A stretch of DNA of 64,000 bases from positions 1 to 64,000 of the forward strand of contig JACTMU010000111.1 of the NCBI GenBank assembly GCA_014584465.1, in the 5' to 3' direction. Source of the stretch: Pseudomonadota bacterium (GTDB taxonomy: Bacteria > Bdellovibrionota > Bdellovibrionia > Bdellovibrionales > JACTMU01). Shown here piece by piece: positions 31,173-42,869 of this stretch (positions are counted from its first letter, which is position 1; every line of letters starts with the position of its first letter). Position numbers and translations under genes: made by a program. The notes below the pieces were generated by a model, which ran no database searches, was not told where the DNA came from, and saw only the letters and a list, made by a program, of their open reading frames with translations.

Positions 31173-31488
31173 ATGCTTGACCATTGGAGGATCGGACAGT
31201 GGAGGGGGCGCAGGGATTCAGGCTGATCTTAAGACCTTTTGCGCCTTAGGAGGTTATGGAGCTACCCCAATCATTGTCGACCCGGTGATGATGTCGAAAA
31301 GCGGTGTTCATCTTCTGAGTCAAGAGGGTGTGGTAGCGCTTCGAGAGAAGCTCTTTCCAACATCTATGTGCCAGGTTCCGTTTGCTGGACGCAATAAGTC
31401 AATCAAGCCATTGATGCTCGGATTCTTGTTTCAAGCACTCGATCGCTTCGGGTATTTGAACCCGGATCTGAAATTAGAAATGGGCTAA
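31144..31488 (+). pseudogene. thiD: thiD remnant (HMP-phosphate kinase): internal deletion and repeat insertion
   Basis: The N-terminus [21 protein letters not shown]-type motif (first 30 residues) is a perfect ThiD start, but the sequence then jumps in frame from GGYGA to [13 protein letters not shown], losing about 60 residues that normally lie between. After REKLFP the reading frame enters repeat element E1 at 31368 and ends in it; the C-terminal half with the GTGC catalytic motif is absent. The product cannot be an active kinase. The organism must have another thiD, salvage HMP-PP, or lack thiamine synthesis. The element's other end lies 3 bp from the tilS stop, so the missing part was deleted, not split. 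Confidence 0.9.
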
Positions 31489-31614
31489 AAACCATGAAAG
31501 CCGCCACCAGAGCAGAAGTGCTCGAAAAAATAGACCTCACCGTATCACTGGGGCTCCATTTCTAATTTCAGATCCGGGTTTGAACCCTTGCGCCAAGCAA
31601 ACGGAACCTGGCAC
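31368..31614. repeat. Long nested inverted-repeat element E1 inside thiD
   Basis: A 247-bp element. Outer arms: GTGCCAGGTTCCGTTTGCT (31368-31386) and its exact complement at 31596-31614. Inner arms: a 25-bp perfect pair at 31459-31483 and 31556-31580, starting AACCCGGATCTGAAATTAG. Between the inner arms is GGCTAAAAACCATGAAAGCC and about 50 further bases. The inner part recurs at 39884 (element E2). It holds no open reading frame that looks like a protein and no transposase. Confidence 0.9.
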
Positions 31615-35256: not shown

Positions 35257-35502
35257 GTGTGCCTTGGAGTCCCTGGTAAAATTGTCGCAGTTCATGGTAA
35301 TGACGGAGTTGAGCGTTCAGCTCAGGTTGATTTTGCGGGAGTCCGTCGAGAGGTCTCACTTGCCTGTTTGCCCGAGGCTCAGGTGGGCGATTATGTGATG
35401 GTGCATGTAGGCTTTGCCATCAGCCGGATCAATGAGAAGGCCGCCGCTGAGAGTCTTCATCTGTTGCGCGAGCTTGAAGAGAAGTTGGGGGAGAGTTCAT
35501 GA
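35257..35502 (+). CDS. hypC: [NiFe] hydrogenase maturation chaperone HypC
   Basis: 81-residue chaperone that together with HypD builds the Fe(CN)2CO unit and delivers it to the hydrogenase large subunit. The essential Cys2 is in the canonical [10 protein letters not shown] start, and [19 protein letters not shown] is the family's second signature. The start is GTG with GAGGGTGAG upstream. The stop overlaps hypD by 4 bp. Confidence 0.96.
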
Positions 35503-36614
35503 GATATGTTGATGAGTATCGCGATCCCACCTTAGTTCAAAGCGAGGTCCACCATTTGAAAGAGATCGTTCGTCGATCGGTCACCGTCATGGAGATCTGT
35601 GGTGGTCAAACCAATTCAATTATGAAATATGGGCTTCAGGATCTCATTCCAAAGGAGATTGAACTTGTTCATGGGCCGGGGTGTCCGGTTTGTGTGACCC
35701 CTTTGGAGTTGATCGATCGAGCGGTCCATCTGGCACTTCTTCCCGAAGTGATCTTTTGCTCTTTTGGAGATATGCTGCGTGTTCCGGGAAGTCAAAGTGA
35801 CCTATTCAATGCCAAGGCTCAGGGTGGCGATGTTCGCACTGTCTATTCACCACTTGAAGCAGCTCAACTTGCAGAGGCTCACCCCGAAAAAGAGGTCATC
35901 TTTTTTGCCATTGGTTTTGAAACAACGGCCCCTGCAAATGCAATGGCCTTGTTCTATGCACTAAGGAAGGGACTGAAGAATTTTTCGCTATTGGTCTCCC
36001 ATTTTCTTGTGCCGCCTGCGATGGAGGCCATTCTCTCTTCACCGAAAAATCGAATCGAAGGGTTTTTGGCAGCAGGACATGTCTGTACGGTGATGGGGTA
36101 TGAGGAGTATCTTCCCATAGCGGAGAGATACAAGGTGCCCATCGTGGTGACAGGATTTGAGCCTGTCGATCTTCTTCAGGGGCTCATCATGTTGGTGAAG
36201 CAGTTGAATGAGGGGCGCTACGAGGTGGAGAATCAATATGTGAGATCTGTGAGGCGTGAAGGAAATCACAGTGCCATGGAGATCATGGACAAGCTCTTTG
36301 AGCGGTCGGATCGAATCTGGAGAGGGATCGGATCGCTTCCGATGAGCGGTCTTCGTTTGAAGCGGGAATATCAACAATTTGATGCAGAAGAGAAGTTTTC
36401 TCTCTCTCACATTCAAGCAAATGAGGATCCTGACTGCATCAGTGGATTGATCATGCAAGGCGAGAAGAAGCCCTTTGATTGCACCCATTTTGGGAAGAGG
36501 TGCAATCCGGAGAATCCCATAGGTGCGCCCATGGTCTCGACTGAAGGGGTCTGCTCTGCCTACTTTCGATACAGTCGAAAGAGTGGTGGTGCCACAGAGA
36601 GCGCAGGGCAATGA
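35499..36614 (+). CDS. hypD: [NiFe] hydrogenase maturation protein HypD
   Basis: 371 residues; iron-sulfur protein that scaffolds assembly of the Fe(CN)2CO cofactor with HypC and HypE. Cys34 (MEICGGQT) and the [11 protein letters not shown] motif (Cys62, Cys65) are the active cysteines, and the C-terminal CDHF-like region ([38 protein letters not shown]) supplies the [4Fe-4S] ligands. Complete and coupled to both neighbours by 4-bp overlaps. Confidence 0.97.
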
Positions 36615-37633
36615 ACAGCTGTCCACTTCCTCATCGAAATTTCGAACGAGTGCTGATGGGTCATGGCAGTGGAGGTCGCTTAACTCAGAGACTTCTTGAT
36701 GAAGTGGTCCTACCTCTTTTTGATCGAGAACAAGTGAATGATCACCATGACGGTGCGACTTTAGAACTTCCTGGAGGGCCGCTCGCCTTTTCCACCGACA
36801 GCTTCGTAGTTACTCCTATATTCTTTGCAGGGGGTGACATAGGAAAGTTGGCTGTCTATGGAACCGTCAACGATCTTGCCATGTGTGGAGCTAAACCCCG
36901 ATATCTGAGCTGCAGCTTGATCATTGAAGAGGGGTTTCTGATCTCTGATCTGCGTCGAGTGATCTCCTCCATGGCCGAGGCCGCCAAAGAGTGTGGAGTG
37001 AGGATCGCAACTGGTGACACAAAAGTAGTGGAAAAAGGAAAAGGAGATGGGATTTTCATCAACACAAGTGGAGTCGGCGAGATTCTGAGGAGCTCAAAGC
37101 CACAGAACATTCGTCCTGGCGATCAGGTGATTTTAAGCGGCGATGTCGGGAGGCATGGTTTGGCAGTCATCGCTTCTCGGCAGAATTTTGAGAGTGATCT
37201 AAAAAGCGACTGCCAAGATCTTTCAAAAGTTGTATTGGAGATCATCAAATCGGGATTTGAGTTTCACTGTTTAAGGGATCTGACTCGAGGTGGGCTTGCC
37301 ACCAATCTTCGTGAATTGGCCGTATCTTCTTCCTGTGGAATTGTTCTTCACGAGCAGACCATACCCGTGTGTGATTCAGTAAGAGGGGCCTGTGAAATTC
37401 TAGGAATTGATCCGCTCTACTCAGCCTGCGAGGGACGTATGGTCCTCATTGCGCCGAAAGCGTCATCGAGCCTGCTCCTTGAATTTCTGTCTGGACATCC
37501 TTGTGCTTCTGATCCGAGGATCATTGGTGAAGTGGTGCAGGATGGCCGCGATCCACTGGTGCTTCGTAGCGAATGGGGGAGCGAGCGCATCCTTGAATCA
37601 CTGATGTATGAGCAGCTTCCGCGAATCTGTTGA
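36611..37633 (+). CDS. hypE: [NiFe] hydrogenase maturation protein HypE
   Basis: 340 residues; ATP-dependent dehydratase that turns the carbamoyl group on its own C-terminal cysteine into thiocyanate for the cyanide ligands. [18 protein letters not shown] at the start, [27 protein letters not shown] and the terminal PRIC with Cys340 are all canonical. hypA, hypB, hypF and hydrogenase subunits are not in the window, so the rest of the system must be elsewhere. Confidence 0.97.
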
Positions 37634-38038: not shown

Positions 38039-38273
38039 AATGACACCTCCATATTGAACGAATGCAGAAAGAGTGTAGGAAATGGCAGAAGGCGTGTCAA
38101 GGCAACGATCTGTTCAATCTTCGATTTGTGGAGCTTGATTCACTCGTACGGCAATAGGGTGTCGGATGCTCTGAACTTAAGAAGGCATCCTGAAGGCCCC
38201 TTGGCGGAGAGTGCAAAGGAATCTATAAAACTTTGCAAAGGATCGTGTGGAGAACCGTCACATAATGTGATAT

Positions 38274-38434
38274 AGTCCGTTCGGAAAATTCTGCGATGCA
38301 AATTGCGAAGGTGTTTTTTGTCAGATTGAACAAAGATCGACGAAGGACTAGCCAGAAGCTAATTCGATGAGATCTTTGTTCAATCTGATGAAAAAGAACA
38401 AGCTAGTTGTGTCGTAGAATTTTCCGAACGGACT
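38274..38434 (+). repeat. Nested-hairpin repeat, copy D (divergent arms)
   Basis: A 161-bp element. Outer arms AGTCCGTTCGGAAAATTCT (38274-38292) and the exact complement (38416-38434). Inner arms TCAGATTGAACAAAGATC (38321-38338) and the exact complement (38371-38388). The 32-nt loop contains GACGAAGGACTAGCC and TAATTCGATGA, which line up with the loop of copy C (GACGATGGGCTAGCC, TAACTCGAGGA), although neither arm resembles that of any other copy. It lies in the 481-bp gap (38039-38519) between the DUF302 gene and the response regulator; the remainder of that gap shows no gene. Confidence 0.85.
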
Positions 38435-38519
38435 GTAGCTTTTCTAAAATTGGCTGTGTGACAACCCGAATTTAAGTCGGAGCCCAACAGGATGTGCAAA
38501 AGTAGGATAGGCGACCAAG

Positions 38520-39896
38520 ATGACCTATGAAGAGAAGAAGGCGGCAAGTGAGCGCCCGTTATTGCTCTTGATTGAAGATGATCTGACTTTATCAGGTCTG
38601 TTGGGAGAGCATCTTGAAAGATCTTTTAGGGTTCACGTGGCAACAACTCTTCGGAGTGCAAGGAATCTCTTTGCATCGATCCATTTTGATCTTGTCTTAA
38701 TGGACATTTATATGCCAGAAGGCAGTGCGGTTGACCACATTCCCAGTTTTGTAGGAAATGGTTTTACAAGAGTTGTGGTCATGACATCTCACCCGGAGAT
38801 TTCTACTGCCATAAGGGCAATTGGCAATGGTGCATTCGACTATCTTTCCAAGCCCTTTGAGCTGGAAGTATTAGAGATCACGCTTCGACGTGCCCTGAGC
38901 CATTCTCATTTAGAGAAGAGGGCCTGCGTGCTCCAGAGACAAAGAGTATGGACATCGGGATTGATGGATTTGGATGGGAAGTCGGAAGTTCGGGTGAGAC
39001 TCAAGATGGAGATTAAGAAGTTCGCACAGTGTGGCACACCGGTCTTAATCCGTGGTGAGAGCGGAAGTGGCAAGAGCCTGGTCGCTAAGATCCTTCATCG
39101 AGAGAGTCCGCGTGGCGACGGTCCATTTATTGAGGTGGTTTGTTCCAAACTTCGTCGAGATTCGTACAGAGCTGAACTTTTCGGATCCGAACCAGCCGAC
39201 AGCGAGTTGGGCAAAAAGAGAATAGGCCTTGTTGAGCTGGCGCAAGGAGGGACGCTCTATTTTGATGAAATAGGGGATCTTCCTGCGGAGATTCAGGAGG
39301 ATCTCCTCTATTTTCTTGATGCAGGATCTATGAGAAGGATTGGCTCAGAGGGAGATTTGGATGTGAATGTGCGAGTGTTGGCTTCAACTCAGCGCGATCT
39401 TGCCAACCCTTCGGAAGGATTTCGGAAAGATCTTTTTTATCGGCTCAATGTCTTTTCGCTTTTTTTACCCTCTTTGCGGCATTGTAAAGATGACCTACCG
39501 CACTTTCTTGAAAAAATGATTTCGGATTTGTGCGAACAGCTCCAGAGAAAACCATTCTCCGTTTCACGCGACGTGTTTAGGGTCTTTCAGGCCTACGATT
39601 GGCCGGGAAATTTCCGTGAGTTGCGCAATGTTTTAGAACGTGCAGCCATTTTGATCGAAAATGGTGAGTTGAATACGGACATTCTTCCGATCGACCTTGT
39701 TGACGGGGTGACTCAAGGGTGCCTATTTAATTGTTTCTGTAATTCAAAGGAGGGCCATTTCCCCTCTCTTGCAGAGCTCGAACGAGCTTATGTATCATTG
39801 GTCTATCTCAGGTCGGCTCAAAATAAGAGCCGAACGGCAGAGATGCTGGGAATCACCCGGCAGACCTTGCGTCAGAAGCTTTCAACCCGGGTCTGA
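38520..39896 (+). CDS. NtrC-family response regulator lacking the GAFTGA motif
   Basis: 458 residues: receiver domain (13-125) with acidic pair ED19-D21, phospho-acceptor Asp62 and KPF; AAA+ domain with Walker A GESGSGKS (179-186) and Walker B GGTLYFDEIGD (243-253) and the FYRLNVF and NVRVLASTQRDL segments; Fis-type helix-turn-helix at the end (RTAEMLGITRQTLRQKL). In NtrC proteins ELFG is followed by the sigma-54 contact loop GAFTGA; here the loop reads SEPADSELGKKRIG, so activation of sigma-54 polymerase is unlikely. The final TRV and stop come from repeat element E2. It is a close sister of the regulator at 40114. Confidence 0.92.
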   Translation: MTYEEKKAASERPLLLLIEDDLTLSGLLGEHLERSFRVHVATTLRSARNLFASIHFDLVLMDIYMPEGSAVDHIPSFVGNGFTRVVVMTSHPEISTAIRAIGNGAFDYLSKPFELEVLEITLRRALSHSHLEKRACVLQRQRVWTSGLMDLDGKSEVRVRLKMEIKKFAQCGTPVLIRGESGSGKSLVAKILHRESPRGDGPFIEVVCSKLRRDSYRAELFGSEPADSELGKKRIGLVELAQGGTLYFDEIGDLPAEIQEDLLYFLDAGSMRRIGSEGDLDVNVRVLASTQRDLANPSEGFRKDLFYRLNVFSLFLPSLRHCKDDLPHFLEKMISDLCEQLQRKPFSVSRDVFRVFQAYDWPGNFRELRNVLERAAILIENGELNTDILPIDLVDGVTQGCLFNCFCNSKEGHFPSLAELERAYVSLVYLRSAQNKSRTAEMLGITRQTLRQKLSTRV

Positions 39897-39964
39897 AGTT
39901 AGAAATGGGCTAAAACCCACGAAAGCCACCACCAGATCCGAATTTCTAATTTCAGGTCCGGGTT
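39884..39964. repeat. Inverted-repeat element E2 at the 3' end of the response regulator
   Basis: An 81-bp element with 23-bp arms (39884-39906 and 39942-39964) that pair at 20 positions; the left arm reads AACCCGGGTCTGAAGTTAG. The first 60 bases match the inner part of element E1 at 31459, including the GGGCTAAAA and GAAAGCC segments and CCACCAGA, so E2 is a shorter copy of the same family. The stop codon of the upstream gene lies in its left arm. Confidence 0.85.
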
Positions 39965-40113
39965 TCAAATCAGATCTGCTGTATACAAGATCAACTCGCC
40001 GCATCAACGCATGGTAAAAAAATGACCACTTTTGAAGTGGGCAAGGGCAATATTGGAGAGGAGCTTGTCTCCTCAAGAGATCCAACGTTTTCTATAGAAA
40101 GGGAGACTGATCG

Positions 40114-40680
40114 ATGGATAAGCAAAGGGCTGAGATACTTCTCGTTGAAGATGATCGATCTTTACAAGATGTTCTTACAGAACATCTCAGTGGCAAATAT
40201 CGTGTTCAGCTGGCTTCATCGGCCAAAGAAGCTCTTCAATCCATGGAATCAAATAGCTTTGATCTCATTGTTTTGGATCTTCATTTGCCCGACGGGAGTG
40301 GCATTGATCTCATGCAACACAGTCTCTCTGATGTGAGTGATCCCCCGTTCATTGCCATGACATCTCATCCTGATGTGGATGTTGCGGTCAATGCGATGAA
40401 GGTCGGTGCTGTCGATTACATTGTGAAACCTTTCGAGTTGGGTGACTTTGATCGAGTTGTTGAGCGGGCTCTTCAAACTTCAGGAAAGAGAGAAAAGATT
40501 CAAAAGCGACAGATCACATTGCGGCTCGACGTATCGGTGATCGACTACTTTAAAAGATTGGCCAGCGAAACGGGGATCACATACCAGAATTTGATCAACC
40601 TCTACCTACGTGGTTGTGTTCAAAAGGGTGAGCGTCTCAATTTTGAGTGGAAAACTGGTAAAGGATCGCAGGTTCCTTGA
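40114..40680 (+). CDS. Response regulator with ribbon-helix-helix (antitoxin-like) output domain
   Basis: 188 residues. The receiver (1-122) has EDD at 12-14, phospho-acceptor Asp55 (LIVLDLHLPDG) and Lys105 in VKPF. A short basic linker leads to residues 132-175, KRQITLRLDVSVIDYFKRLA and then TGITYQNLINLYLRGCV, which has the beta strand and two helices of a ribbon-helix-helix DNA-binding fold, most like the BrnA/CopG class of antitoxins. Receivers with this output are unusual. The receiver is clearly related to that of the regulator at 38520 (shared MTSHP and VKPFEL or SKPFEL blocks). It is convergent with the Amt-kinase gene. Confidence 0.85.
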   Translation: MDKQRAEILLVEDDRSLQDVLTEHLSGKYRVQLASSAKEALQSMESNSFDLIVLDLHLPDGSGIDLMQHSLSDVSDPPFIAMTSHPDVDVAVNAMKVGAVDYIVKPFELGDFDRVVERALQTSGKREKIQKRQITLRLDVSVIDYFKRLASETGITYQNLINLYLRGCVQKGERLNFEWKTGKGSQVP

Positions 40681-40700: not shown

Positions 40701-42869
40701 TTAACTCTGAGATTGAATAGGAAGTAAGATTTGAAAACAGGTTCCTGGAGTGGTTTTTGGGACCAAAGAGAGGTCGCCTCCATAACTCTTGATGACGTTG
40801 TAGGAGAACGAGAGCCCTAGACCTGTCCCTTTCATAAGGGAAGAGCTATCGTACTTTGTCGTGAAGAAAGGCTCAAAGATCTGTTCTCTTATGGTTTCGG
40901 AAATTCCGTGTCCAGTATCACACACGAGAATTTGAACCCTACCGCCCTCAAAGACCGTAGAAATTGAGAGAACCTTGTCAAGAGTTTCGCCCATTGAATC
41001 AACTGCGTTTTCTATGAGGTTGCTGATGACTTGATGAAAATGGATTGCAACGCCCTCAATCAAGGGGATCTCTTTCAGGTCTGCCTTAATTTCAACTTGT
41101 TTGGTTTTGACAAGTCGAATCTTTAAGAGATCAATTTCACTCTGTATGATCTCATTCAAGTTGATCTGAGCAGGTGGAGTGATTGAGGCTCGTGCAGAAA
41201 CAAGCAGGGAAGAGATGATCTGTTTGAGTTGCTTTCCAGCGGTTGTGATGATCTTTACATACTTGTTGTTGGCGTCCTCACGTTCCATTTTTGAAGCACA
41301 CAAGAGAATGCCTGAGAGAGGGTTTTGCAGATTGTGAATGATCTCAGCTGAATGAGTCCCTATGAATGCCAATTTTTCGGATTGGAGAAGTTTCGTGGTC
41401 CGAAGCTGAACTTCCCTTTCCAAATTGTCGTTGATCTGCTTCAGGGCTTCCTGAGTCTTTGCCAATTCCGTGGCGCGCTCTTCCGCCTCTTGTCTTAAAA
41501 TATGCTCCTTGTTCTGCGCATTGACGAAAGCCTTCAGAACCTTATTGTAATAGCGAGCAATTTGGCCCACGGTTGTGTAAGGTTCTTCATGAGCTGGGGT
41601 TTGAAATTCTTGTTGGTCACTGTGTTTTTTCATATCAGTCAAGAGGTCTGTAAGTTCTGTTGTGGCTCCATGCTCTGAATAGTTCAGGCCTTGCATTTCA
41701 TCTTCAAGTGAAATTCGAAGAGGCTTGAAACGGTTGATGATGCGAAAGAGAAGATAACTGAGCCCAAAGGACCAAATTCCTGTAGCTGCAACTCCTTCGA
41801 CTTGCACTGCAAGTTGGGAAGAAGTTGAAAGACCAGTCCCCAAGAGCTCTGAATTTCCAAAGAAACCTACGGCAAGTGTTCCCCACACACCACCGACAAG
41901 ATGGGCCGGAATCGCATGAACGGCATCGTCAATCTTAAGACGGTAAAGAAGAGATATGGCCATTTTCGAGAGGAGTCCTGCGACTGCGCCAATAAGAATG
42001 GCTGACCCTGGGACGACGGCACTGCAGCCGGGAGTGATCGCAACAAGCCCAGTGAGGAGCCCCGTGGAGAGCTCTTCAATGGAGGCCACCTTCTTGCTGC
42101 TTTGAAGCACCCAAAGATAGGTGGCAACCATTCCTGCAGATCCACTCAAGAGTGTTTTAACCATGATGGGAGCCGTAGATTGATCCAGACGTCCGAGGGC
42201 TCCAGCGTTGAAGCCGAGCCAACCAATCACAAGAAGAAGAACACCAAGCATCGTTAGGGGTAGGTTGCTGCTGGAGAGAACATTGGAGCGATCAAAACGG
42301 CCCGATCGCGGTCCAATGACAAGAATGGCGGCAAGTGAAATCCACCCTGCAACGCTATGAACAACTGTTCCACCTGCGAAATCGACGAAGCCTTGAGATT
42401 TGAGCCATCCCGACGAACTGATTCCATCAGCACTCTTCCAGACCCAATGGGCAACAAAAGGGTAGATTAAAAGGGAGGTCACAAAGACCATCATGAGATA
42501 GGTCCTCAGGCGGACTCTTTCTGCAATTGCTCCCGAGATGATGGTGGCCGAGGTACAGTAAAACGCTAGGTTGAAGAAGAAATGTGGGGTAAGAGAGGCG
42601 TCACTGTTCCAAAAATGGACGAGCGATTGGGGGTCGAGAAGTTGCAATCCGACAAAGCCGTGAAAGCTTGGCCCAAAGATCATCATGTATGCGGCAAAAT
42701 AGAAAAGAAGAGAGCAGAGCGCAAAATCCATGACGTTGTTGAAAGCAACGCTGATGGAGTTCTTAGACCGAGTGAGGCCTGACTCCAAGCACAAAAAGCC
42801 AAGTTGCATAAGGATCACTAGGACAGAGCAGAACAAAATCCATAAATCATGGATCGTCAAATTCTTCAC
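40701..42869 (-). CDS. Ammonium transporter-histidine kinase fusion
   Basis: 722 residues. Residues 1-395 are a full Amt/Mep/Rh channel of about eleven helices, with the twin pore histidines conserved as His171 (GGTVVHSVAGW) and His323 (AIPAHLVGGVWG) and the closing MQGLNYSEHG. A coiled coil (440-500) connects to a histidine kinase: His512 in EIIHNLQNPLSG, N box NLIENAVDSMGE, CDTGHGISE and GTGLGLSFS. It most likely senses ammonium by conduction or binding and phosphorylates the two nearby response regulators. No PII/GlnK gene is adjacent. It is divergent from the BBP2 porin gene. Confidence 0.94.
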   Translation of the reverse strand: MKNLTIHDLWILFCSVLVILMQLGFLCLESGLTRSKNSISVAFNNVMDFALCSLLFYFAAYMMIFGPSFHGFVGLQLLDPQSLVHFWNSDASLTPHFFFNLAFYCTSATIISGAIAERVRLRTYLMMVFVTSLLIYPFVAHWVWKSADGISSSGWLKSQGFVDFAGGTVVHSVAGWISLAAILVIGPRSGRFDRSNVLSSSNLPLTMLGVLLLVIGWLGFNAGALGRLDQSTAPIMVKTLLSGSAGMVATYLWVLQSSKKVASIEELSTGLLTGLVAITPGCSAVVPGSAILIGAVAGLLSKMAISLLYRLKIDDAVHAIPAHLVGGVWGTLAVGFFGNSELLGTGLSTSSQLAVQVEGVAATGIWSFGLSYLLFRIINRFKPLRISLEDEMQGLNYSEHGATTELTDLLTDMKKHSDQQEFQTPAHEEPYTTVGQIARYYNKVLKAFVNAQNKEHILRQEAEERATELAKTQEALKQINDNLEREVQLRTTKLLQSEKLAFIGTHSAEIIHNLQNPLSGILLCASKMEREDANNKYVKIITTAGKQLKQIISSLLVSARASITPPAQINLNEIIQSEIDLLKIRLVKTKQVEIKADLKEIPLIEGVAIHFHQVISNLIENAVDSMGETLDKVLSISTVFEGGRVQILVCDTGHGISETIREQIFEPFFTTKYDSSSLMKGTGLGLSFSYNVIKSYGGDLSLVPKTTPGTCFQILLPIQSQS

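Follow-up and report, generated by a model that had tools for sequence, protein, structure and literature searches.

A putative response regulator that joins an NtrC-like receiver to an antitoxin-type ribbon-helix-helix domain

INTRODUCTION

Response regulators of the OmpR, NarL and PrrA/ActR classes consist of an N-terminal receiver, a short linker and a small C-terminal DNA-binding domain, which is a winged helix or a helix-turn-helix (HTH). BrnA antitoxins of brnTA type II toxin-antitoxin modules (PF14384, PF12441) repress their own operon and carry a ribbon-helix-helix (RHH) domain at the C-terminus (PMC11980606, PMC5086665). The only combination of RHH and receiver that we found in searchable papers is the Arc-type RHH-HisKA-REC of Lokiarchaeum (PMC5847659), and none of these papers reported a receiver with a C-terminal BrnA-type RHH. 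A fusion of an ammonium transporter (Amt) domain with a histidine kinase is known from Ks-Amt5 of Kuenenia (PMC5764959), the response regulator of which was stated as not yet identified (PMC12918730).

Here, we analyze an open reading frame (ORF) of 188 codons in a 64-kb window (the whole stretch of DNA that was analyzed, 64,000 nucleotides). Its predicted product shares with BrnA antitoxins the C-terminal position of the RHH, the strand pattern Q-x-T-x-R/K/N and an RHH core that is about 50% identical and has nearly all invariant residues. Unlike the antitoxins, it has a receiver in the place of the N-terminal segment and no BrnT gene next to it. The receiver sequence is like that of NtrC/AtoC-type regulators, one of which is encoded by the upstream neighbor, but RHH stands where these regulators have AAA+ and Fis domains. 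The overall layout is that of the OmpR, NarL and PrrA/ActR classes, although recognition of DNA would be by beta-sheet. The Lokiarchaeum proteins also unite RHH and receiver in one polypeptide but place HisKA between them, whereas the protein described here appears to be a response regulator. A convergent gene (40701-42869) encodes an Amt-histidine kinase fusion as in Ks-Amt5, and here two response-regulator genes adjoin it.

RESULTS

The ORF begins with ATG, and the purine-rich AAAGGGAG lies 5' of its start as a plausible ribosome-binding site. The features of the gene are as follows.

40114 to 40680, + strand: putative response regulator, NtrC-like receiver plus BrnA-type RHH, 188 aa (ORF, Pfam, AlphaFold2)
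40135 to 40449, + strand: receiver domain, aa 8-112 (Pfam Response_reg, E = 3.7e-23; key residues; AlphaFold2 pLDDT mostly >93)
40486 to 40503, + strand: linker from helix alpha5 to the RHH, approximately aa 125-130, low confidence (AlphaFold2 pLDDT)
40504 to 40653, + strand: RHH domain, approximately aa 131-180, with strand KRQITLRLD and helices 140-153 and 157-171 (Pfam, alignment, AlphaFold2, Foldseek)

An earlier note on this DNA had described a complete receiver with Asp55, a C-terminal RHH of the BrnA/CopG kind and the lack of a neighboring toxin gene, and all three observations held. The catalytic set of the receiver is intact (acidic pair Asp13/14, phospho-acceptor Asp55, Thr83, Tyr102 and Lys105): the aspartates, the Thr/Ser and the Lys that characterize response regulators are all present. 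The C-terminus matched BrnA_antitoxin (PF14384) over aa 118-166 with 27.7 bits (cut-off, 26.1), and CopG_antitoxin scored 25.5 bits, slightly below its cut-off of 28. No toxin gene adjoins the ORF. The protein is not a member of the NtrC family, as it has neither the AAA+ sigma-54 interaction domain nor the Fis-type HTH; only its receiver is NtrC-like. From the profile matches and the modeled fold, we infer a DNA-binding response regulator with an antitoxin-type RHH output.

We predicted the structure of the fusion with AlphaFold2 from an alignment that combined receivers with RHH relatives. The model (mean pLDDT, 88) contained a well-folded receiver, an extended segment at approximately residues 131-139 and the two C-terminal helices, connected to the receiver by a short linker of about 7 residues (pLDDT <50 at aa 126-130). 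When the C-terminal 71 residues were folded alone, the same two helices were obtained. The top nine Foldseek matches of this isolated model in the PDB were RHH proteins, including Arc, CdbA, VapB, PutA, TacA2 and Reg576; each E-value exceeded 1 because the domain is short (45 residues). The strand lacks a DSSP assignment because one chain was modeled. The predicted single chain has the strand-helix-helix order of the RHH superfamily, with polar and hydrophobic residues alternating in the strand. Q133, T135 and R137 point outward and align with R4, T6 and T8 of CopG, positions that read bases in RHH proteins. By sequence, CopG was the sole sensible PDB relative, and a weak one (E of about 0.1 to 0.2). 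The earlier note had staked its reading on this prediction, and an RHH fold is what was obtained.

Next, we considered how widespread the fusion is. No second fusion was detected with an RHH query in 141 genomes of the order, nor in 369 genomes of the phylum, in 395 genomes from the phylum to which a Desulforhopalus belongs, in 399 from that of a gammaproteobacterium or in 392 from that of a Brocadia. The order and phylum samples overlap, and the total is about 1,550 different genomes from four phyla; as the E cut-off was 1e-22, fusions whose receiver has diverged strongly may have gone undetected. In the full-protein searches, the passing matches besides the window's own were receivers ending at approximately aa 122-145 in ORFs of at least 341 aa, and a scan of the genome's contigs with the full fusion protein returned receivers. 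The plasmid and phage collections held no fusion among the matches examined. Weak BLAST matches in Caballeronia, Sinanaerobacter, Elusimicrobia and Bacillus were rejected as fusions (receiver alone or with a winged helix or HisKA), as were Rhizobium plasmid matches reaching aa 154 (annotated as ordinary response regulators). The output domain had been called rare, and the searches bear this out. The combination of receiver and BrnA-type RHH, as judged from sequence and model, is real, well supported and rare; it is known from one genome, with no orthologue found.

The fusion gene follows, in order, hypCDE (hypC, hypD and a hypE-like gene, 35257-37633), a DUF302 gene and the NtrC-like regulator gene; the Amt-HisKA-HATPase gene comes after it, in convergent orientation. 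Beyond the latter are genes for a BBP2 porin, an MCP-like protein (by its sequence) and a hemerythrin. Rfam gave no known RNA within the 64-kb window. The two neighbors are as follows.

38520 to 39896, + strand: NtrC-like response regulator, REC + AAA + Fis HTH, without GAFTGA (Pfam, tree, alignment); likely receiver paralogue
40701 to 42869, - strand: ammonium transporter-histidine kinase fusion, convergent; proposed cognate kinase (Pfam)

The closest models to the fusion receiver were FixJ, AtoC, NtrC and LuxO. The fusion and the upstream NtrC-like regulator are 38% identical over 134 aa, a match that runs through the linker and ends at residue 133, where the RHH strand starts. Both genes encode the motif MTSHP around Thr83, which occurred in 0 of about 140 other distinct receivers collected, and a tree joined the two receivers with weak support (89/22). 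Local duplication of the receiver is therefore likely, although not proven.

The upstream regulator itself has a Walker A motif (GESGSGKS) but LFGSEPADSELGKKRIG in the place of GAFTGA. Pfam labels a sigma-54 domain in this product despite the missing motif; because GAFTGA is missing, partnership with sigma-54 is improbable, and the protein probably does not work with this factor. Before the gene, at 38271-38437, are nested long inverted repeats (arms of 36 nt and 25 nt, 83% and 92% complementary, respectively) that had no Rfam match and are possibly a MITE-like element or a structured leader.

The convergent gene lies 20 bp from the fusion gene. Pfam identified Ammonium_transp (E = 1.2e-104) and HATPase_c (E = 7e-21) in its product, with HisKA marginally under its cut-off (E = 1.6e-5). 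This Amt-histidine kinase is a candidate for sensing ammonium in a bacterium that is not an anammox organism. The best-scoring models for its kinase half were AtoS, VirA-like and ZraS, two of which (AtoS and ZraS) are known partners of NtrC-type regulators; an NtrC-like receiver thus fits the kinase half as a partner. At E 1e-120, the Amt-kinase was not found elsewhere among about 140 genomes of the order, and in this sample the fusion likewise occurs in this genome only. Against a pairing of the two stand the convergent orientation, the lack of a shared operon and the NtrC-like regulator, which is equally near as a partner. We consider the chances that the fusion regulator pairs with this kinase to be even.

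To place the RHH domain, we compared it with its nearest relatives in the order, which are stand-alone BrnA-type antitoxins of 71-73 aa (51-53% identical). A BrnT gene lies upstream of several of them, by Pfam where checked. The fusion keeps 12 of the 13 RHH-core columns that are invariant in ten antitoxins (the single change is Ile to Leu at aa 136), whereas in the N-terminal segment MKKEYDFSK, the place of which is taken by receiver and linker, it keeps none of the five invariant columns. This difference points to the RHH having been under constraint after the two parts were joined. Each of the two BrnT genes in the genome has an antitoxin of its own downstream; the fusion is therefore not a displaced antitoxin, and no toxin is left without a partner. 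Measured against BrnA antitoxins, then, the fusion has the RHH profile and lacks both the KKEYDFSK segment and an adjacent brnT. The suggestion that the domain was recruited from a toxin-antitoxin protein agrees with these comparisons, which make an antitoxin origin of the RHH very probable. The fusion itself would have arisen by local duplication of a receiver and capture of the DNA-binding half of an antitoxin.

Two other antitoxin loci drew our attention. In the genome's own brnTA (contig C91, L190 1471-2014), a palindrome with 10-bp arms, ATAGTACCACcatGTGGTACTAT, lies just 5' of brnT and is probably an autoregulatory operator. In L010 (1200-1665), the brnT upstream of a BrnA antitoxin seems frame-disrupted, leaving an antitoxin without a working toxin, the type of intermediate that recruitment would require.

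Finally, we searched the DNA in front of the fusion gene for operators.

39965 to 40113, + strand: region 5' of the gene, containing three short palindromes, CCACTTttgAAGTGG (40026-40040), GAGGAGcttgtCTCCTC and TTTCTATAGAAA; candidate operators only
39884 to 39964, no strand assigned: REP-like inverted repeat, present genome-wide

The 149 bp upstream of the fusion contain three palindromes with arms of 6, against an expectation of 0.27 from shuffled sequence (P = 0.0025); among stretches of this length in the window, about 1% have three or more. Promoters of brnTA, the genome's own among them, also contain palindromes. The three upstream of the fusion have no sequence in common and are therefore operator candidates only; one also resembles a minus-strand terminator. 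Of the two places proposed earlier for an operator, the fusion's own promoter showed this excess, but no motif beyond 8 bp was common to the upstream region and the Amt-kinase promoter. CCACTTNNNAAGTGG has a single exact copy in the window, with near-matches at chance level. The inverted repeat of the REP-like element is 23 nt long, its arms are separated by 35 nt, and the element has a further copy in the window (31455-31517). It was rejected as the fusion's operator because about 50 genomic sites match parts of it.

DISCUSSION

On balance, we favor the view that the fusion is an antitoxin-RHH response regulator whose binding to palindromes is controlled by a kinase. Asp55 would be phosphorylated by a histidine kinase, for which the convergent Amt-kinase, a possible ammonium sensor, is the most plausible choice. 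The phosphorylated receivers would then pair or reorient and so change how strongly the RHH dimer holds short palindromes. The targets would include the regulator's own promoter and nearby genes (the NtrC-like gene, the Amt-kinase gene and perhaps hyp), where the protein, like BrnA at its own promoter, would repress or modulate initiation. Control of DNA binding by phosphorylation is the part of this scheme that we regard as quite probable; that phosphorylation raises binding is somewhat favored.

Folding and dimerization go together in Arc and CopG, and RHH dimers are usually obligate. Since RHH folds usually need the dimer, the receiver may not be the dimerization switch; by analogy, the RHH of the fusion may already be dimeric, with the receiver acting by steric gating or cooperativity. 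For the same reason, the sign of the phosphorylation effect could go either way. The fusion could thus be a constitutive RHH dimer on DNA that lets go when its phosphorylated receivers clash with the DNA or with each other. Besides obligate dimerization, the short linker speaks for such a repressor: in RHH-DNA complexes, the ribbon sits in the major groove, and a short linker would hold the N-terminal receiver beside the DNA. Most DNA-binding response regulators, however, bind better when phosphorylated, and we consider release by phosphorylation rather unlikely.

Alternatively, the gene may have arisen by chance and be neutral, with a duplicated receiver fused to an antitoxin remnant and perhaps no role other than draining phosphate from a kinase. 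Its occurrence in one genome would suit this explanation, but the 12 of 13 invariant RHH-core residues preserved despite divergence to about 50%, the intact catalytic residues and the plausible ribosome-binding site make it improbable. That the RHH half, or the receiver replacing the N-terminus, still neutralizes BrnT and brings a toxin under two-component control is suggested by the identity to BrnA and the two BrnT genes of the genome, but the loss of the KKEYDFSK segment, the antitoxin downstream of each BrnT gene and the absence of a toxin gene beside the fusion leave this very improbable.

Under the favored reading, a kinase-controlled regulator with an antitoxin-type RHH, the DNA-binding domain of an antitoxin would have been taken as a two-component output; its source (BrnA), the likely receiver donor and the junction are readable in the sequence. 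A more specific proposal, which we make tentatively and hold to be rather doubtful, is that a duplicated NtrC-like receiver and the DNA-binding half of BrnA form the output of an ammonium-sensing Amt-kinase, a type of regulator undescribed in searchable papers. The fusion offers a test case for phosphorylation control of the RHH, a beta-ribbon DNA-reading fold. It is also a possible response regulator to pair with an Amt-histidine kinase, a sensor whose partner was stated to be unidentified in Kuenenia (PMC12918730).
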